In this document: positions 2,924 through 12,135 of the stretch, one piece after another
Numbering within the stretch: position 1 is the first letter of the stretch
How the letters are laid out: every line of letters starts with the position of its first letter
DNA from: Frankia nepalensis
Lineage (GTDB): Bacteria; Actinomycetota; Actinomycetes; Frankiales; Frankiaceae
Direction: 5' to 3'
NCBI RefSeq assembly: GCF_016786325.1
Contig: NZ_JADWYU010000111.1
Span: 1-44,970, forward strand
DNA: 44,970 bases
The notes under the pieces: generated by a model
What the model saw: the letters and a program-made list of their open reading frames with translations, nothing else
Databases searched by the model: none
Told to the model about the DNA's origin: nothing
Made by a program: the position numbers and the translations under genes

Positions 2924-3068
2924 GCCGGCGGCCGCGCTTGCGCCGCTGGGGCGGTCGCTGCTCTGCTGATGCTCTCGTCGTGCTCACCGGTCGGGTCAGC
3001 GCGCAAGCGCGCGGCGGATGCGGTCGGGACCCGACCGTGCCGTCCCTTCTTGTGAAGGAGCTGTCGCC

Positions 3069-3530
3069 GTGCCGTTGCTGGAGCCTGAGCTCACCTTTGC
3101 CTTCGAGGCGCGTGTCGAGATCGCCGAGCCGGTGCAGGTCACGCACGGACCTGACGAGGAGTTGCGGTTCATTCCGATCACCGGCGGCACGGTCACCGGC
3201 CCACGGCTGAACGGTGAGGTACTGCCCTACGGCGGGGACTGGGCGACGACGCGGCGCGGGGAAACGGAGCTGGACGCCCGATACCTGGTGCGGGCCGACG
3301 ACGGCGGGATCATCGACGTCCACAACCGTGGCATCGGGTATGTCAGCCCCGAGGCGATGGAACGGCTGCGGGCCGGCGAGCCGCTGGATGAGACCAACTT
3401 CTACTTCCGGACCTCGCCGGTGTTCCGGACCGGCGCCCCCGCCCACGCCTGGCTGACCTCGACGGTGTTCATCGGCATGGCCCGCCGGGAGGACGGCATG
3501 GTCTGCATCCGCTTCTTCGCGCTGAGCTGA
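3069..3530 (+). CDS. DUF3237 family protein
   Basis: 153 residues from GTG 3069, chosen because a GAAGGAG ribosome-binding site lies 9 bases upstream; a longer frame exists but lacks such a site. The sequence shows the DUF3237 pattern: an initial strand FAFEARVEI, then RFIPITGGTVTGPRLNGEVLP, a GGDW turn, DARYLVRADDGGIIDVHNRG and the closing FYFRTSPVF...WLTSTVFIGMARR. Members are small beta-barrel proteins of unknown biochemical role found widely in actinobacteria. The gene stands alone downstream of the conservon and marks the edge of the GC-rich flank before the accessory region. Confidence 0.87.
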   Translation: MPLLEPELTFAFEARVEIAEPVQVTHGPDEELRFIPITGGTVTGPRLNGEVLPYGGDWATTRRGETELDARYLVRADDGGIIDVHNRGIGYVSPEAMERLRAGEPLDETNFYFRTSPVFRTGAPAHAWLTSTVFIGMARREDGMVCIRFFALS

Positions 3531-3566
3531 CGTCCGGCGCTCGCCGGCCGCGAGCCGATCCGAACG

Positions 3567-4133
3567 TCACCCCCGGTGTTCACCTGCCGATAACGTAGAT
3601 CTTGTTGCGATCTGGAGATCTGGCAGAGATTCGGCTGGGCGCTCCAGCAGGTAGACGAGGTTGTGGGTGCGCTGGACCTTGTAGCGAAGGGTGAAACCCT
3701 GGTTCTCGTAGTAGCGGACCAGCGCGGGGTGAAGGCAGCCGCGGCGGACCCAGCGGCGGCCCTCGCGATGGGCACGGTCGACGGCCCACAGGGCGATGAG
3801 GGCTCCAGGCTGAACGGCGCGATAGGTCGGGTCGGTTGCCGTCGTGTAGAGGTAGTGGGCCGGCTCGGCAAGTTCCTCGGCGGTCCAGCCCCAGGGCGGG
3901 GCGCTGTCCAGGATGGTGGTACAGCCGATCACTGTGCGATCGTCATGGACGAGCAGCCACTTCGTGCCGTCGGGGTTGTCGGCCTGACCGGCGAGGTCGC
4001 CGACGCTCGCCCGCCAGGTGGGCAACCCGCGCTCCTCAAGCCATTCGCACCGCGCGAGCAGCATCCTGGTCACCGCCGGGATGTCATCACTGGTCGCGGG
4101 CCGCATCGCGAGTTCGAGGCCACCGGCGGTCAT
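3567..4133 (-). CDS. GNAT-family N-acetyltransferase
   Basis: 188 residues with GNAT architecture: an N-terminal strand-helix unit (LAMRPATSDDIPAVTRMLLARCEWLEERG), the central strand WLLVHDDRTVIGCTTI, an acetyl-CoA-binding region around AVQPGALIALWAVDRAHREGRRW in which the usual R/Q-x-x-G-x-G/A loop is loosely kept, and the closing LVRYYENQGFTLRYKV, the typical GNAT helix-strand end. The substrate cannot be told. The ATG overlaps the stop of the upstream minus-strand gene by four bases (ATGA), so the two are probably translated from one message. Confidence 0.82.
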   Translation of the reverse strand: MTAGGLELAMRPATSDDIPAVTRMLLARCEWLEERGLPTWRASVGDLAGQADNPDGTKWLLVHDDRTVIGCTTILDSAPPWGWTAEELAEPAHYLYTTATDPTYRAVQPGALIALWAVDRAHREGRRWVRRGCLHPALVRYYENQGFTLRYKVQRTHNLVYLLERPAESLPDLQIATRSTLSAGEHRG

Positions 4134-4719: not shown

Positions 4720-5616
4720 ATGGCTCCGGCTGGGGACTTTAAGGCAGAATTTCGGCTCAGCATCACACGGGCGATGGCTACGCAACTCGCGGAGACTCTC
4801 GACCATCTTGAGCCGGTCCATCTCACCACCGCGAACCTCGCCAGACTTGAGCCGCGTCCGGGTGTCTATGAGCTGTATCTCCTCGGTGACAGGGTCTATG
4901 TCGGCAAAGCGGACCGTTCTCTGCCGGAAAGACTTGAAAAGCATCGGATTAAGCTGTCAGGTCGCTATGGTATCGACATCAGGGACGTCGCTTTCAGGTG
5001 TCTATACGTCGAGGAGGACCTCGAAGCCGCCGCGCCGGAAAAGATGTTGATCTCAGAGTACAGGCGCCGCGACCCGAATCGTCGTATTGTCTGGAACACG
5101 AACGGATTCGGCAACAACGACCCTGGGCGTAACCGTGACGACTCTCTGGTCAAGGTTGCGCATTTTGACGCCAAATATCCTATTGACTTGAACGCATCAC
5201 TTCCCGCGCTGGGCGCGGGTATTCGCGAGATGCGAGCCTATCTCGAAAGTGTCAAATTTGCCCTTCCCTTCACCTTTCGATATGACAAGTCCCCGGCCAC
5301 CAAGAGGGATCTATCGAGTTCTTCGGTCGAGTTGCGCGGTGGCCCGCTGACTCCGCGAGAATTAATGTGGGAGGCGATCAGAGGACTGCCAACCGGGTGG
5401 CAGGCCACGGCGCTTCCAGGTTACCTGATTCTATACAGGGAGAATCGTCGGTACGGCAGCGCGCTGGCGGTTTGGCGAAAGGAAGACGGCGAGGTAGCGG
5501 AGAAAAGGCTCGATGCCATGTATGCCGAGGACGGAGATTCTGAGGGTGCTAGCAGCGTCTATAGTGATCTCCAACTCCATTTTGAACCGCTGACCCTAGA
5601 AGAAGGAACCGAATGA
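4720..5616 (+). CDS. GIY-YIG restriction endonuclease, Eco29kI-related, with C-terminal extension
   Basis: 298 residues from ATG 4720. The core carries the GIY-YIG signature as PGVYELYLLGDRVYVGKAD (GVY at 48-50, YVG at 60-62). Next come Arg71 and His75 in RLEKHRIKLSGR, Glu107 in AAAPEKMLI and the WNTNGFGNNDPGRNRDD motif after residue 125, which is typical of the Eco29kI nuclease family. The tail after about residue 150 is longer than in Eco29kI (about 214 residues in total) and may help DNA recognition. Role (inference): type II cleavage partner of the methyltransferase 198 bases downstream on the same strand. The DNA is clearly lower in GC than the chromosome, as expected for a transferred locus. 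The enzyme is divergent from the second Eco29kI-like gene in this locus. Confidence 0.82.
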   Translation: MAPAGDFKAEFRLSITRAMATQLAETLDHLEPVHLTTANLARLEPRPGVYELYLLGDRVYVGKADRSLPERLEKHRIKLSGRYGIDIRDVAFRCLYVEEDLEAAAPEKMLISEYRRRDPNRRIVWNTNGFGNNDPGRNRDDSLVKVAHFDAKYPIDLNASLPALGAGIREMRAYLESVKFALPFTFRYDKSPATKRDLSSSSVELRGGPLTPRELMWEAIRGLPTGWQATALPGYLILYRENRRYGSALAVWRKEDGEVAEKRLDAMYAEDGDSEGASSVYSDLQLHFEPLTLEEGTE

Positions 5617-5632
5617 TTGCTTGCGGTTCGAT

Positions 5633-5682
5633 AAAGTCAAGAGCGCCCATCGGCGGTCGAGTGCGAGAGAGTTCTTGACTTT
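5633..5682 (+). terminator. Inverted repeat after the restriction gene (terminator or operator)
   Basis: AAAGTCAAGA at 5633-5642 is exactly complementary to TCTTGACTTT at 5673-5682, with a 30-base loop, beginning 16 bases after the endonuclease stop. No clear T-run follows. The site lies 130 bases before the methyltransferase start, so it may end the first transcript or be a regulator binding site controlling the methyltransferase. Confidence 0.4.
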
Positions 5683-5814
5683 GCCGAACTTTGCCGTCTA
5701 AACACCGAGTGGCGGGATCGTCGCGGTAAGGCGTCAGTATCGCCACGGTCACAGATTGCGCTTACCCGGCGTGTCAGTCAAGTCTCGTCGGAGGCTCGCG
5801 GTAAGCTCCGAGGC

Positions 5815-7065
5815 ATGACGGTCGAGTTCGCTCCTAGCGGTGAGTGCTTGCCTCTGCCCTGGGACGCTGGCGGTCTCCCAGCAAAGGAGAGTACGTCGCT
5901 TGAGTTGTTCAGCGGGGGTGGTGGTCTCGCGGAGGCCATGCATGCCGTAGGGTTTCGGCACCTTCTGGTTAACGAGTACGATCGTCGGGCTTGCGAGACG
6001 CTCCGGCTGAACCGAGCCGTTGATCTCGATGATGTGGATGGGGATCCCGAACGCCACAAAGGTGCATGGCCTATTGTGGAAGGTGACGTTCATAAGGTTT
6101 CGTTCGAGCGCTGGGCGGGGCGGGTAGACGTCGTTGCCGGAGGCGTTCCGTGTCAACCTTGGTCGCTGGGCGGCGTTCATCGAGGTTATGAAGACCCTCG
6201 TAACCTATGGCCGGAATTCGCGCGAGCCGTCCGAGAGACTCACCCGCGGGCATTCCTCGCGGAGAACGTCCGCGGCCTGCTTAGACCGAGCTTTGCCGAC
6301 TACTGGCGTTACACGCTCCGATGCCTGCGGATGCCGTACCTCGAGAAACATGAGGGCGAGGACTGGAGCGATCATAATTCCCGCCTTGAGAAGGAAGGGA
6401 AGGCGAGGAGTTTTAACCCCGCCGAGCGTTATTCGGTGAGCGTGCATCCTGTGAACGCCGCTGACTACGGCGTCCCGCAGGTTCGTCAGCGTGTTTTCAC
6501 CATCGGTGTCCGGGCGGACCTAGGCGTTGAGTTCGAGTGGCGGCCTCCTACTCATAGCGAGTCCGCGCTTCTACGAGCTCAGGCGACTGGCGAGTACTGG
6601 GAGGGCCACGGTCTAAAACCCCGACCGTCGGTTCGTCAATCCTCAGGTGAAGGCGATCCGGAACTCGCTCCATGGAGAACTCTCCGGGACGCGATTGAGG
6701 GATTGCCGGAGCCGCTTGGGCATAAGAAGGAATACCCGGGATGGATTCATCACTTTGGCTGGGACGGCGCTCGCGAATACCCGGGACATACTCCCAACCA
6801 TCTAGACCTGCCCGCGAAGACTGTTAAGGCGGGCGTTCACGGAGTTCCTGGCGGCGAGACGGTTCTTCGTCGTGATGACGGCACCATCCGCTACATGACC
6901 GTTCGTGAGGTTGCCCGCGTCATGACATTCCCCGATGACTGGCATCTAGCCGGACCGCGCGGCGAGCAGATGCGCCAGTTGGGTAACGCTGTCCCGGTCG
7001 ATTTGGGCAAGATAGCCGCCAACGCGGTTGCCAAGGCACTCCGGTCTAGCTTGAGGGTTACGTGA
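5815..7065 (+). CDS. DNA (cytosine-5-)-methyltransferase of a type II system
   Basis: 416 residues with the C5-methyltransferase motifs in order: motif I LELFSGGGGLAEA (about 29-41, SAM binding), motif IV VPCQPWS with catalytic Cys113, motif VI AENVRGLL (149-156), motif VIII-like VNAADYGVPQVRQRVFTIG, a variable target-recognition region of about 100 residues, and motifs IX-X near the C-terminus (YMTVREVARVMTFPDDW and RQLGNAVPVDLG). It would methylate cytosine in the recognition site of the linked nuclease and so protect host DNA. The site itself cannot be read from sequence. Its stop overlaps the vsr start by four bases. GC content is well below that of the flanking chromosome. The GAGG upstream of ATG 5815 is unusually close to the start. 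Confidence 0.95.
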   Translation: MTVEFAPSGECLPLPWDAGGLPAKESTSLELFSGGGGLAEAMHAVGFRHLLVNEYDRRACETLRLNRAVDLDDVDGDPERHKGAWPIVEGDVHKVSFERWAGRVDVVAGGVPCQPWSLGGVHRGYEDPRNLWPEFARAVRETHPRAFLAENVRGLLRPSFADYWRYTLRCLRMPYLEKHEGEDWSDHNSRLEKEGKARSFNPAERYSVSVHPVNAADYGVPQVRQRVFTIGVRADLGVEFEWRPPTHSESALLRAQATGEYWEGHGLKPRPSVRQSSGEGDPELAPWRTLRDAIEGLPEPLGHKKEYPGWIHHFGWDGAREYPGHTPNHLDLPAKTVKAGVHGVPGGETVLRRDDGTIRYMTVREVARVMTFPDDWHLAGPRGEQMRQLGNAVPVDLGKIAANAVAKALRSSLRVT

Positions 7066-7550
7066 CCAACGGACTGACGCCGACCGGCCGGCCCCAACGC
7101 CGGCTAGGCAAGCGAGACCCGGCCGTTACGAGCAAGATGATGTCCAAGATCCGAAGCAAGGACAGTAAAGCCGAGTTAGCTCTCCGTCGCGCGCTGCATG
7201 CGAAGCGTATGCGTTACCGCATCCATGCCAAGGATGTGCCTGGCTGCCCTGACATCGTGGTCCGGTCGCGAAAGCTCGCCGTTTTCGTCGACGGCGATCT
7301 TTGGCATGGCAACCCCGATGAAGTCCGGCGCCGCGGTCGCGACTCCCTTGAGGACCTCTTCCCTACACGAACTGAGTGGTGGATAGCAAAGATCGAGCGC
7401 AACAAGGAACGTGATCGAGAGGTCAATGGGCAGCTTAAGTCGATGGGCTGGACCGTGATCCGCCTCTGGGAGCATGACGTGCTCTCGGATCCAGAGGCAG
7501 CCGCGAACCTGGTCATCGAGATTGACTCCCAGACCCGTTTCGATAAGTGA
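7062..7550 (+). CDS. vsr: Very short patch repair endonuclease (Vsr type)
   Basis: 162 residues. Family features are SKMMSKIRSKDSKAELALRRAL, RYRIHAKDVPGCPDIVV with the catalytic Asp64, AVFVDGDLWHG with His82, and the C-terminal NGQLKSMGWTVIRLWEHDV. Vsr nicks next to T:G mismatches arising by deamination of 5-methylcytosine, so its place directly behind a C5-methyltransferase is logical; the GTG start overlaps the methyltransferase stop (GTGA). Compared with E. coli Vsr, the structural zinc cysteines appear replaced (GD for GC in the FVDGDLWHG segment, WEH for WEC near the end), suggesting loss of the zinc site. Confidence 0.9.
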   Translation: MTNGLTPTGRPQRRLGKRDPAVTSKMMSKIRSKDSKAELALRRALHAKRMRYRIHAKDVPGCPDIVVRSRKLAVFVDGDLWHGNPDEVRRRGRDSLEDLFPTRTEWWIAKIERNKERDREVNGQLKSMGWTVIRLWEHDVLSDPEAAANLVIEIDSQTRFDK

Positions 7551-7699
7551 TGCCTCTCTGTGGCGGTCGTGGCTGCGGTCAGGATGCTCTAACGTTGGCT
7601 ACAGCGTATTCCTCGCCCGATGGAGTGTGGCCATATATCTAGAGCGATGGGCGATATATTCGCTGGTCGGCCAGTTCCATTGAGCATAAAAATTCGGCG

Positions 7700-8317
7700 C
7701 TAGATTCCGTCCGGGCTGACCTGTTCTTTGATTCTCGTCCGCACTTCTTCGGCGAGGATCTCCCGGCTACGCTTGTCCTCGCCGTACGAGCGAGATCTTC
7801 CTGGGTGCACAGTGTCCCACTTGGTCCGTTGGCCTTGGCGGGTAGATGACCCCTGCTCATTGCTGCCGAAACCCGTCAGAACACTGTTCCAGACTGGAGT
7901 ATAGTTAACTCGGAGCGCATTTTCTCCGAGCCTGATATGCACATCGGGGAGAAGGAGCCGCCGAACTCCAAACTCGGTTATAGGCAGGTCGGCAGTGCTG
8001 CTAATCGACTTGTGGTGGATCTTTATCCTCGCGTGTAGTGGAGCTGTCGATCTCGTGCCCAGCCCCGTCGCGCTGTTGTGTGACATCGCGCTTCCTACGT
8101 AGAGCGGTATGGAAGTACCCGCTAGCGGTAGGTAGAGATCAACGCTAGAACCCAGGTAATATATCGCGTAAAGACCCGCGCCTTCGAATCGAGCTGGTGA
8201 GTTCTGGTCGAATCGGTGAACCTCTTGAGACTCGAAATGCCAGCAGATGTAAGCCGCGAGGCTCTCGGTTGACAGCGGATCCCAATGGATGGGTGCGGGC
8301 CAAGATTTATCATCCAT
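7700..8317 (-). CDS. Eco29kI-type GIY-YIG restriction endonuclease
   Basis: 205 residues, close to the 214 of R.Eco29kI. The active-site pattern is complete: GLYAIYYLG (Tyr50), PLYVGSA (Tyr73), ARIKIHHKSI (Arg97, His101), Glu132 in RLGENAL and Asn144 in PVWN. Downstream motifs TGFGSNEQG, RQGQRTKWD and HPGR also match the family. It is convergent with vsr, 149 bases away, on the opposite strand. It is more canonical than the endonuclease at 4720-5616, so this locus has two Eco29kI-family nucleases around one methyltransferase. Composition is low in GC for this genome. Function as a type II nuclease is inferred from family membership; both could be active, or one may be a later acquisition. Confidence 0.85.
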   Translation of the reverse strand: MDDKSWPAPIHWDPLSTESLAAYICWHFESQEVHRFDQNSPARFEGAGLYAIYYLGSSVDLYLPLAGTSIPLYVGSAMSHNSATGLGTRSTAPLHARIKIHHKSISSTADLPITEFGVRRLLLPDVHIRLGENALRVNYTPVWNSVLTGFGSNEQGSSTRQGQRTKWDTVHPGRSRSYGEDKRSREILAEEVRTRIKEQVSPDGI

Positions 8318-8740: not shown

Positions 8741-9331
8741 TCACACTTTGCTCGCACGATGTCGGTAGTTTCCCGTGACGGTGCCTCTGTGATTCCGGGC
8801 GGCGCCATGCTCGCCGCGAAGTCGGCGGCATGGAGCCGGTTCCACTTGTGGCTTGTAGGCATGTCCGTCTGTCCGGTGAGCGCTGAGCCAGCCTTTGCAG
8901 TCGCGGCGCCTTTCCGGGTCCGCGGGCGTCGTCAGGTCGGTGCGGAGGCCGCGGCGGCCGGCGAGCGACGCGGCCGCCGCTAGGAACCAGGCCTCGAACT
9001 CGCGATTGGCAATCACCACGGAAACCCGCCGGTCGGGACGACATATCTGCGATCGGGCGAGCAATGACGGGCCGAGGGCCGCCGGGCAGTCGTCGTCTGC
9101 ATCGAGCAGCACCAAGACGCCGTCCGCTTGGTCGACCTGCTCGGCGACGACGGCCAGCACCGATTCAAGCCCGTCCTTGCCGACGACGGTGGGCCGACTG
9201 ACTCGGTGCGGACGTGGCAGTTCGAGCCACACCTCGGGTGCCAGTTCCGCGGCGATCCGACGGAGCAGCACGGGGACAGCCGCGACCTCGCCTTGTCCTT
9301 CGACGATGGTCGCGATCCTGAGCGGGGTCAT
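8741..9331 (-). CDS. DUF4276 family (TOPRIM-like) protein, C-terminus probably frameshifted
   Basis: 196 residues. The N-terminal part matches DUF4276: RIATIVEGQGEVAAVPVLLRR with the acidic EGxxE start of a TOPRIM-like fold, VLVLLDADDDCP with clustered aspartates, and VVIANREFEAWFLAAAASLAGRRGL. After CKGWLSAHR...YKPQVEP (about residue 165) the family pattern is lost and the sequence becomes Arg/His-rich. Another frame over the same bases gives AADFAASMAP, reminiscent of the expected helix, which suggests a frameshift. The gene follows the AAA ATPase by 13 bases on the same strand. Such ATPase/TOPRIM-like pairs resemble OLD- or PARIS-type anti-phage modules, with this subunit as the putative nuclease. 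Function is inferred. Confidence 0.7.
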   Translation of the reverse strand: MTPLRIATIVEGQGEVAAVPVLLRRIAAELAPEVWLELPRPHRVSRPTVVGKDGLESVLAVVAEQVDQADGVLVLLDADDDCPAALGPSLLARSQICRPDRRVSVVIANREFEAWFLAAAASLAGRRGLRTDLTTPADPERRRDCKGWLSAHRTDGHAYKPQVEPAPCRRLRGEHGAARNHRGTVTGNYRHRASKV

Positions 9332-9344
9332 GGGCTCAGCCGCC

Positions 9345-10562
9345 TTATCGTGCGCTCGGGCCCCCGCCGGTCGGTGCTGCTGGCATCAGCTGGCCGGCGC
9401 GGTGGAGCTGGCTGATGGTCATGAGCTGCTTGGCGACGATCGCCTGGCCGGCGGAGTCGACCTCGCCGACGCGGGTGACGCCGTCGACGCTGGCCACAGC
9501 CCGGATGTGGTCGAGCCGGACATACTCGTTGTCCAGCAGGTCCGAGCTCTGGCTGGTGACGATCACCTGGGTGTGCCGCGCGGCGTCGTCAAGCGCCTCA
9601 TAGAGGCCACCGACCGCCGCGGGGTGCAGCGCCTTCTCCGGCTCCTCGATGCCGAGCAGCGACACCTGGCCGGTGAAGACCGGCTGTTGGAAGAGCGCGG
9701 CGAGCACGCCCGTGGCGCGCAGCGTCCCCTCGGACAGGGACTCCCGCGGGACGATGTCGACCTCTTCGACGGCCTCACCGTGCCGGAAACGGGCCTCGAC
9801 GGTCGAGTACCGGCCCTCCCGCCGCTCGTCCATCCCGACCGCCCCTGGCACCAGCCCGGCGAGGTATGCGTCCAGCCGCTCCTTGCCCGCCCGGTCCGCG
9901 GTCGCCATGGCGTCGAGAACCTGGCCCAGGTGCCCGCCGGACGGGCCGAGCTCGGACCGTCGGCCGGTGCCCTCCTCCAAGGCGCGTAGCGCGTCCGCTT
10001 CAAGGTCATAGAAGCGCATGGCAAGCAACGACTCCTCGACGGCGGCGAACCGGTCGTCCCGAGTCGCCTCGGCCGGCAAGCGCAGCCGCGCACGGGGACG
10101 GCCTGGAGTGTCGGCCCATCCGTCCGCTGAGCCGACCCGGCAACGCTCCCGCAGCACAGCCAGCGACATCCCCGGGTCGTCTCCCCGGCCGATGGCGAAG
10201 CCGTAGGTTGCCTCGACCGCCTCGCCGCCCTCGCTCAGCGGGGGCAGGAGCAGGTCGAGAACGATCTCGAACGATTCGGCCTGGCCGTCGCGGCCGCGCC
10301 GCAGCAGCGCGTCCAAGCCGCCACGGTCCTCGACTGCTCGCACCGGCGAGGTCCGCACCGCGTCCGCGACGAACCGCAGAGCATCCAGCAGGTTCGACTT
10401 CCCGGAGGCGTTGAACCCGACCACGACGGTCAGCGGGCCGAGGGCTAGGTCGCAGTCGGCGATAGAGCGGAAGTCCCGCACCCGCAGCCGTGGCACGAAG
10501 GGCACCGGCCTCGCCGGTGAACGCACGGTTCCCCGACCACCCCCGCCCCGTGGGCCGGTCAT
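9345..10562 (-). CDS. AAA family ATPase (AAA_21 type), partner of the DUF4276 gene
   Basis: 405 residues from ATG 10562; earlier in-frame starts add only low-complexity sequence. It has an SMC/RecF-like layout: LRVRDFRSIADCDLALGPLTVVVG leading into Walker A GFNASGKSN (49-57), a long middle region, the signature-like ESLSEGTLRATGVLAALF, Walker B LLGIEEPEKALHP, and VIVTSQSSDLLD as D-loop/H-loop region. This matches the family of ATPases found next to DUF4276 or other TOPRIM genes. It probably senses a trigger and controls the nuclease subunit encoded just downstream (inference). GC content is high here, unlike the restriction locus. Confidence 0.87.
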   Translation of the reverse strand: MTGPRGGGGRGTVRSPARPVPFVPRLRVRDFRSIADCDLALGPLTVVVGFNASGKSNLLDALRFVADAVRTSPVRAVEDRGGLDALLRRGRDGQAESFEIVLDLLLPPLSEGGEAVEATYGFAIGRGDDPGMSLAVLRERCRVGSADGWADTPGRPRARLRLPAEATRDDRFAAVEESLLAMRFYDLEADALRALEEGTGRRSELGPSGGHLGQVLDAMATADRAGKERLDAYLAGLVPGAVGMDERREGRYSTVEARFRHGEAVEEVDIVPRESLSEGTLRATGVLAALFQQPVFTGQVSLLGIEEPEKALHPAAVGGLYEALDDAARHTQVIVTSQSSDLLDNEYVRLDHIRAVASVDGVTRVGEVDSAGQAIVAKQLMTISQLHRAGQLMPAAPTGGGPSAR

Positions 10563-11154
10563 ACGTCCACCCGCCCTGCGCCGGGTCGCGTATGACGCGC
10601 TCCGGCGGTCCGGGTCCGTCGCGGCCTCATCGCACCTCCTGGGCCAATCTTGGCGCAGGAGCCGACCCGAGTAGGGCAATCGCGACGCGCGGCCTCCCGG
10701 AGGGATCCGGCGACAGCCCGCCACCCAGTCGGGTGGGATCCCGACGTCTGTATCAGTCATGTGCGAACTCCCAGGCCCCTCGTCTCAAGGAACGCCACAC
10801 TGACGACTCCGTCACTGTCTGGTACGACAGTACCTGGTGTGGGCCCTCTTGATCAGCAGGAGTCCGCCGACGCCGGTGTCTGTCGACGCTGAGCCTGGTC
10901 ACCTGCCGTCGGGGTTGGCTCGTCGCAGACGAAGGCGGGCGCCGCCCGGAGCCCGCCGGCCCTGTGTAATCCGCCCGTGTTCGCCAGCTACGTCGCAGGC
11001 CTGTGGACCTTCCGCGCGGCCGCGTCGGGGAATCCGGCGAGAGAACGGCGGACCGGAGTCGCCCGCCGTCACGCGGCCAGCATGGTGCCGGCCCTCGCCC
11101 GGTGGAAGTGCGGGCGGGACCGCGCCGATCTACGCGGCTGGTTCTAACCGAGCG
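10563..11154. other. Gene-free stretch upstream of the AAA ATPase
   Basis: About 590 bases between the ATPase start and the end of the HNH gene. No convincing coding region was seen on either strand. It contains a palindromic site at 10814-10831, described separately. Confidence 0.5.
10814..10831. promoter_or_regulatory. Palindromic operator-like site
   Basis: ACTGTC and GACAGT form exact 6-base arms around TGGTAC. The overlapping GGTAC-GACA-GTACC adds a second symmetry. The shape is like TetR-family operators. It lies about 250 bases upstream of the ATPase start in gene-free DNA; no TetR gene is nearby. Confidence 0.35.
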
Positions 11155-12135
11155 TCAGACAGCCTCGGGGTCGGAAGCGGCGAGGTTAAGCCGGTGCCAC
11201 GTGAGGTACCGGATGGCTGGACGCGTCGCCCGTTCGGGCAGGATGAGCGTCTCAGCGAGCATCGGCGGGGTGAAGGCCGCCGCCAGGATCGGGTTCGCGG
11301 CCATCGAAGATCGCAGCGCCGGCGAGATCCCGATGATCAGGTTGTCCTCTACGTGCAGCAGTCCGGTGTCGAACGCGGCATCGTGGTTCGGGCACGCGGC
11401 GAGACCATTCGCGACATCGACGCGCTCCGCGTTGGTCGATGCTCGCCAGGGCTTGATGTGCGAAGCACGCAAAAGCCTCCTGCCGGCGAGCCCTGGCCCT
11501 GGCGAGAAGCCGCAGAAGGCGCACCGGTAGCCGTAGTTGATCAGGACACTCCGCGCGAACTTGAACTGCCCTATACGGACCGCGACCTCGCGAGTGGCCT
11601 GCGTTGTCTTGTCCCCGGTGTCCGTGGCGCCACTCGTCTGCGTGCTCTCGTTGGCCGCCTGGGCGATCTCTGTGTCTGACACCTGGCTCTGGTCGAGAAT
11701 GGCCAACTCGGAGCCAATGAAGTCGGGGAGGTCAAGCTCGGAGACTCCGTGAGCCCGCGCCGACTCGAGGATCCTCTGATAGAGGCTTTCCGCCAAGCCC
11801 CGGTCGGTGAGCAGGTTTGTCGAGACCGCCACCTCGTACTTGGCGCCATGCGCCCAGGCGCCACTGAGGTTCGACATCTTCGAGAGAACCGAGCTGGGCG
11901 GGCGGCGGAAGAGTACGGCAAGTTCAGGAACCGGTGTTGGGGCCTTGTGCGCGGTCGTGCTGCCGTACCGGCTCGCGTTCACGACTAGTGACCCGAAAAA
12001 GCAGAGCAGTGCCTCGATCGGGGTGAAGTCTTCTTGCCTCTTTCCTGGAGGCAGCGGCGACCGTGCCAGGATCTGCGCCCATTGCTCGTCCACGGCCTCG
12101 TTTGAGAGCTCAAGGTAGTCGCCGAGCGTGCGCAT
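11155..12135 (-). CDS. HNH endonuclease
   Basis: 326 residues. The C-terminal half carries an HNH_2-type nuclease: YRCAFCGFSPGPGLAGRR with a CxxC pair, LLRASHIKPWR with the catalytic His, ERVDVANGLAACPNHDAAFDTGLL with the Asn and second His, then the LIIGISPAL strand. This arrangement is common in HNH restriction-type nucleases of defence regions. The N-terminal 170 residues are helical and unassigned and could be the DNA-binding part. On the coding strand TATACT lies 6 bases before the ATG, so the transcript may be leaderless. No methyltransferase is adjacent, so it could act alone on modified or foreign DNA; this is inference. Confidence 0.87.
   Translation of the reverse strand: MRTLGDYLELSNEAVDEQWAQILARSPLPPGKRQEDFTPIEALLCFFGSLVVNASRYGSTTAHKAPTPVPELAVLFRRPPSSVLSKMSNLSGAWAHGAKYEVAVSTNLLTDRGLAESLYQRILESARAHGVSELDLPDFIGSELAILDQSQVSDTEIAQAANESTQTSGATDTGDKTTQATREVAVRIGQFKFARSVLINYGYRCAFCGFSPGPGLAGRRLLRASHIKPWRASTNAERVDVANGLAACPNHDAAFDTGLLHVEDNLIIGISPALRSSMAANPILAAAFTPPMLAETLILPERATRPAIRYLTWHRLNLAASDPEAV

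Follow-up and report, generated by a model that had tools for sequence, protein, structure and literature searches.

Type II restriction-modification (R-M) systems are taught as one nuclease and one methylase. One of the closest described relatives of the locus studied here, the Eco29kI system of the E. coli plasmid pECO29 (NC_001537), has an Eco29kI-family GIY-YIG nuclease and a C5-cytosine methylase; it has one nuclease, and no Vsr gene was found. We analysed a 44,970-nucleotide stretch of Frankia nepalensis contig NZ_JADWYU010000111.1 (the window), in which a cassette at positions 4720-8317 likewise holds an Eco29kI-family nuclease (R), a recognisable homologue of R.Eco29kI, and a methylase of the same kind (M) that has a recognition-region block in common with M.Eco29kI. 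The window adds a Vsr-type endonuclease (V) and a divergent second nuclease (L). Two intact nuclease genes thus accompany the one C5 methylase found in the genome, a departure from the one-nuclease-per-methylase rule of orthodox type II systems. From the sequence comparisons below, we consider it likely that each of L and R is competent by itself and that a single protected site serves both, in a type II R-M system of modular build.

Other known systems resemble parts of this arrangement. Plasmid cassettes of Rhizobium (NC_012858), Methylocaldum (NZ_OX458334) and Ruegeria (NZ_CP102414) carry a Vsr, a C5 methylase and an L-type nuclease of the same three families, but their gene order differs from that of the window and no R was found in the stretches examined. 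BbvCI, Bpu10I, BslI and BsuM have more than one nuclease gene per system, with the parts needed together, whereas here each nuclease also occurs alone beside the same kind of methylase. The CCGCGG system DraI (R.DraR1/M.DraR1) of Deinococcus radiodurans has a nuclease of the R family, as in the window, but only one Eco29kI-family gene is listed on its plasmid; it also differs in having an m4C methylase, located apart, and no V element (PMC10855626, cited here and below from its accessible portion). That portion, from a REBASE survey of CCGCGG systems, counts 439 nucleases along with 361 methylases, from which it derives 310 m5C systems; V, C or H elements accompany some of these. It calls most unassigned enzymes orphans and does not describe two-nuclease systems (PMC10855626). 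Our search of the open-licence literature found no report of two nucleases with one methylase like the L-R pair, nor of the SacII genes. One paper mentioning "two REase genes" was rejected as a precedent, as its accessible part concerns two separate systems.

The cassette consists of the following genes:

4720-5616, + strand: L, the left GIY-YIG nuclease; 298 amino acids, with an Eco29kI-like core at about residues 10-154 and an extra C-terminal alpha/beta domain at about 155-270
5815-7065, + strand: M, C5-cytosine DNA methyltransferase; 416 amino acids, the only PF00145 gene found in the genome
7062-7550, + strand: V, Vsr-type very-short-patch T:G mismatch endonuclease; 162 amino acids, overlapping the end of M by 4 bp
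7700-8317, - strand: R, the right Eco29kI-family GIY-YIG nuclease; 205 amino acids, convergent with V

All four frames are intact, and their composition is foreign in each case (guanine plus cytosine content 56-61%, against 71% for the window). The start of L (ATG 4720) was picked by alignment to the annotated starts of the plasmid relatives; the alternative is a TTG frame. Together with the family matches, the intact frames confirm what a sequence-only reading of this DNA had described, one C5-methyltransferase/Vsr pair between two different GIY-YIG nucleases. Chance open frames were rejected because L and R are both conserved in other genomes; their catalytic residues are intact and relatives show purifying selection.

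R is an ordinary Eco29kI-family enzyme. It scored 115.5 bits against the RE_Eco29kI model PF09517, above the curated Pfam cut-off of 30.8, and a sequence search recovered its homology to R.Eco29kI (E-value 3.4e-18). A structure model built from 25 aligned rows had a predicted local distance difference test score of 87.1 and matched 3nic_A in Foldseek (E-value 1.5e-13, template-modelling score 0.76). Residues Y50, R97, H101, E132 and N144 are invariant in an alignment of 8. The catalytic residues mutated in R.Eco29kI are Y49, R104, H108, E142 and N154 (accessible part of PMC1952068). The residue following the YIG glycine is K in R.Eco29kI and S in the window R; among the R copies checked in two-nuclease loci (n = 35) it was K in 18, Q in 10, R in 5 and S in 2.

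L sits at the threshold of PF09517, with 30.7 bits for the TTG frame or 30.9 from ATG 4720, and fell under the cut-off of the GIY-YIG Pfam model (17.5 bits, cut-off 22.6). PF09517 was matched at E <= 0.001 by 50 of the 52 rows of the L-family alignment. A profile-profile alignment of L with R spans L residues 10-154 (hhalign probability 98.9, E-value 2.2e-17), with an identity of only about 26% in the aligned core. Structure prediction and alignment gave R.Eco29kI as the best PDB match for both nucleases, so L too has the Eco29kI fold; its alignment held 52 of the 64 rows first listed, L076 being excluded for a stop in the stretch and 11 others dropped to shorten it. The catalytic residues of L (Y50, R71, H75, E107, N126) are the same as in R.Eco29kI and invariant in the L alignment. 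The extra C-terminal domain is real, with a high-confidence model to about residue 270 and conserved positions throughout the L family. L is a distant Eco29kI-family relative carrying an added domain, and the earlier description of the flanking nucleases as Eco29kI-like yet divergent holds. With L as query (P0001), we found no relative among phage records and viral contigs, and only chance-level matches among PDB sequences (best E-value 0.14). Across 396 genomes sampled evenly from the phylum, the same query recovered its own genome and one match at E-value 4.6e-4, which is an R gene in genome G205. Long frames (about 520-690 amino acids) with an L-like domain were seen at loci L133 and L134 and in genomes G784, G454, G751, G509, G672 and G477. 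At L133 and L134 we found neither M nor V nearby, and two or three of the catalytic residues differ; the long frames are possibly repurposed nucleases.

M and V are clear members of their families. M scored 173.4 bits against PF00145 (cut-off 22) and 137.5 against TIGR00675 (dcm; cut-off 100.65), and V scored 118.8 against TIGR00632 (cut-off 97.85) and 78.1 against PF03852 (cut-off 27). Identity of the window M to M.Eco29kI (L055) in the recognition region and elsewhere was 46% and 43% in one alignment, 43% and 46% in another. The block common to the two methylases, GHTxxxxDxPxKTxKAGxHGVPGGE, is missing from 12 control C5 methylases of relatives. Since R.Eco29kI cleaves CCGC/GG (PMC10855626) and M resembles M.Eco29kI, the site of the cassette is probably CCGCGG, judging by similarity to both Eco29kI enzymes. 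The sequence-only reading had allowed for a second methyltransferase elsewhere in the genome that matched one nuclease. No PF00145 gene was found besides M (the assembly has 398 contigs, so a gene may have been missed). Three PF01555 places on another contig were compared with a Deinococcus plasmid methylase, taken as M.DraR1 from its position; the best result was a 33-residue match at E-value 0.93, no real similarity to that m4C CCGCGG methylase. A further C5 or DraR1-like m4C methylase was thus rejected within the limits of that assembly. Elsewhere, R-type nucleases can pair with an m4C methylase: in genome G094 (L236, G094:C27, 3556-5505) an R gene stands beside a protein 49% identical to the methylase taken as M.DraR1, apparently a further member of this rare m4C CCGCGG system. 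Vsr frames longer than V, with an N-terminal extension, were seen in two related Frankia-group genomes (L043, 2178-3017; L044, about 2951-3925).

The two-nuclease arrangement recurs. We scanned one genome per species and found 171 L relatives, and the best 80 of these plus the window gave 81 loci (including a fragment, L125, and the altered long frames L133 and L134). R lies within 1.5 kb of L, M or V in 33 of the 81, and all 33 also have M and V; their hosts are Actinomycetota and one myxobacterium. R is further off in two more (L082, L085), and the Frankia canadensis locus L067, its R just outside the stretch, was counted as lacking one. Two R genes accompany L in L094 and L097. One M-V pair with two R genes, with or without L, is seen in L213 (G536:C60, 2520-6641; no L), L094, L097, L226 and L227, so that the nuclease slot holds up to three.

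We also counted both nucleases in 392 genomes of one genus, Streptomyces, a sample not selected by the neighbours of L, although some of its genomes are also among the 80 loci. L was present in 18 and R in 18; both were present in 10, against 0.83 expected (Fisher p-value 8e-11, with genomes treated as independent). The thresholds were 280 bits or more for L, which excludes six long L-like frames (189-231 bits) along with weaker matches, and 90 bits or more for R; up to 6 first-look candidates per genome were scored for L and up to 9 for R, so misses are possible. R was within 4 kb of L in nine of the ten double-nuclease genomes and about 9 kb away in the tenth. We rejected a general tendency of defence genes to cluster as the cause of pairing: in nine of the ten, R lies about 1.2 kb or less from L, M or V, and one M gene was found at each of these loci (that of L222 in two frames). 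Among the eight R-only genomes, five have M and V, one R is at a contig end, and two (L214 in G572, L215 in G589) have no C5 methylase in the stretch; the R genes of these two belong to the same clade as the third nuclease of L094 and L097. A PF09517 match above cut-off occurred in 5 genomes of the phylum sample, the window's genome included, and in none of 14 control genomes. The co-occurrence that the sequence-only reading had looked to as support is therefore found. Since the same pairing is present in many related bacteria, it appears to be a design that is being maintained and not an accident.

Closely similar methylases accompany L alone or R alone. The M of G607 (L216; M, V and R, with no L found) is 90% identical to that of S. 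radiopugnans (L086; M, V and L, with no R found), and 89% identical in the target-recognition region, a natural nuclease swap. Other pairs of the same type with different nucleases are 85% (L210/L110) and 74% (L051/L009) identical. Much the same methylase must therefore guard against R in one genome and L in another, and since M is of one kind in L-only and R-only systems, a single methylase probably gives protection from either nuclease. This supports the earlier suggestion that two nucleases could share one protected site. In a tree of 105 distinct M sequences (of 111 rows) the partner labels are interspersed; the minimum number of changes forced by well-supported branches is 13 for the L-only label, 8 for the two-nuclease label and 9 for the R-only label. 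The R tree, which excludes L052 and L239 (R in pieces), duplicates and copies below 100 bits (the broken R of L219), places the window R in a clade of 10 (support 100/99) with seven two-nuclease loci including the window, the R-only L216 and L217, and L085, where R is 7 kb from L. In the L tree (L125 and duplicates excluded, frames aligned stop-to-stop, which lengthens some branches) the window L groups with the L-only L056, L061 and L062; at least 7 changes of the two-nuclease label are required on this tree. On these trees L and R have joined, or separated, more than once; the change counts cannot tell gain from loss.

Both nucleases look functional, judging from conserved residues and substitution rates. 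The six GIY-YIG site residues (Y, Y, R, H, E, N), five of which are those mutated in R.Eco29kI, are intact in all 33 L copies and all 35 R copies of the 33 two-nuclease loci, and on these counts a generally dead nuclease was rejected. For nine pairs of related loci with synonymous divergence (dS) of L of about 0.2-1.5, the ratio of nonsynonymous to synonymous substitution (omega) was 0.06-0.26 for L and 0.09-0.20 for R, with M and V similar. For the three closest pairs (dS up to 0.05), where changes are few, omega was 0.05-0.41 in L and 0.14-0.33 in R. Both nucleases are under purifying selection in the related pairs tested. Altered or broken copies lie outside the two-nuclease loci in L125 (a fragment), L133, L134 and L052, and broken R copies occur in G754, G090, G345/L239 and L052. 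The sequence-only reading had asked whether either frame proves non-functional in relatives; despite these broken R copies, the intact sites and low omega indicate that neither does as a rule. In G754 (L219, G754:C1, 5719-6255) an R broken by an internal TGA lies beside L and an intact R lies across M-V, pointing to nuclease turnover. In Streptomyces diastatochromogenes (L114/L222) both nucleases are intact and M is in two frames, either a sequencing error or a real break.

In the arrangement we favour, M would methylate a cytosine in one palindromic site, probably CCGCGG, and V would repair T:G mismatches arising from deamination of the methylated cytosine, limiting mutation there. L and R would each cut the same site when unmethylated and each be blocked by M; both appear catalytically complete, and each should be able to act without the other. 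The unit would be modular, with a nuclease slot beside M (usually with V) that takes L, R, both, or further R copies. A second nuclease could enter without harm, its site being already under the protection of the resident methylase, and would then be kept by selection. The benefit may lie in having a spare when one nuclease is lost or inhibited, in differing modes of cleavage, or in stronger post-segregational retention.

Several observations weigh against this arrangement, or narrow it. No R was found in the stretch examined for 46 of the 81 L loci (several stretches are short), and L occurs without a detected R in 8 of the 18 L-bearing Streptomyces genomes, all eight with M and V, which makes the second nuclease common but dispensable. 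Nor is V constant, as none was seen at 5 of the 78 L loci that have M, and because the 33 two-nuclease loci show ten gene orders there is no single fixed operon. The recognition-region:core identity ratio was 0.65-0.96 in control methylases and 0.86-1.13 in the family, a poor separation, and for this reason the common block is the better evidence. Our searches turned up no L member with known biochemistry. The omega pairs come from related loci rather than the window, have some members in common and use frames taken stop-to-stop; the window's only pair (with L119) is saturated, with dS above 2 or undefined and no close relative. The M and L trees were quick searches with some long branches. 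Finally, protection by M against both nucleases is compatible with overlapping as well as identical sites.

An unlikely alternative is that R (or L) is a passenger left from an R-M system whose methylase was lost, tolerated under the resident M with no selected role. In G486 (L218, G486:C8, 13792-14978) what is left of an M, its first 64 residues, adjoins an R that is intact and 86% identical to its counterpart in an M-V-R locus; a full set of L, M and V lies about 9 kb off. This R appears to be a nuclease that outlived its own methylase, and such a loss would be survivable when another methylase of the same specificity is present. In Frankia canadensis (G397) R stands alone, about 7.5 kb away from V and 9.8 kb away from L, and the broken R of G754 fits the same picture. 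However, a passenger should decay, whereas omega is low for both nucleases in nine pairs up to dS of about 1.5 and active sites are intact in the copies checked. Tight linkage is also inherited within clades, and in one R clade each of the 12 rows is in a two-nuclease locus. A second system with a lost methyltransferase, one of the options the sequence-only reading had listed, thus stands as a plausible origin of some pairs such as that in G486.

We think it quite unlikely that L and R read different but overlapping sequences, with M protecting the union, for example a shorter site within a longer one. The low identity of the two cores would allow this, and the C-terminal domain of L could extend or change the sequence that is read. 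Against this, M has a recognition region that is about equally conserved with L, R or both, and the L-only and R-only methylases of the swap described above are 90% identical.

It is very unlikely that L and R form, or are able to form, a single heteromeric restriction enzyme, as the parts of BbvCI, Bpu10I or BslI do, with the pair being selected as a complex. The pairing is conserved, the Eco29kI-like core is common to both, and the oligomeric state varies in the family, R.Eco29kI and R.DraR1 being dimers and R.Cfr42I a tetramer (PMC10855626). Against this, M and V accompany L with no R found in 8 of 18 L genomes, and R with no L found in 5 of 8 R-only genomes, of the one genus; L is paired with very different R clades, and both active sites are intact in 33 loci. 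An obligate form of the heteromer suggested earlier, whose two nuclease genes should always be found together, is disfavoured because both L and R are also found singly next to the same kind of M. Equally improbable in our view is that L and R combine facultatively, as a heterodimer or mixed tetramer acting at a palindromic site, each nuclease active alone and the two together giving a third cleavage mode; if true, this could permit hemimethylated or two-site cutting, or resist phage inhibitors of one subunit, and would amount to a restriction enzyme whose subunits are interchangeable and which a single methylase guards.

In actinobacteria, a family that is probably of CCGCGG type has thus retained, time and again, two different nucleases with the same fold behind one methylase and one Vsr, both nucleases being under purifying selection in the pairs tested. 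This suggests that extra nucleases can find a safe harbour behind a methylase, and the reason for having two cutters of a single site becomes a testable question. L, M, V and R are all together in Streptomyces achromogenes NRRL B-2120 (L105, 6789-10801), the species from which the reagent enzyme SacII (CCGCGG) takes its name. Since this two-nuclease locus lies in that species, SacII could be L, R or a mixture of both.

We sought a fifth conserved neighbour gene among frames of at least 90 amino acids within 5 kb; the largest group was present at only 9 of the 81 loci. Adjoining the cassette in the window, positions 8741-12135 encode a DUF4276-like protein (30.0 bits, just below cut-off), an AAA_21 ATPase and then an HNH_2 protein, and the cassette and these neighbours may form a small defence island. 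On the other side, at 44-2923, genes for a sensor ATPase, a roadblock protein and a small ATP/GTP-binding protein are consecutive, a row that we take to resemble an actinobacterial conservon.

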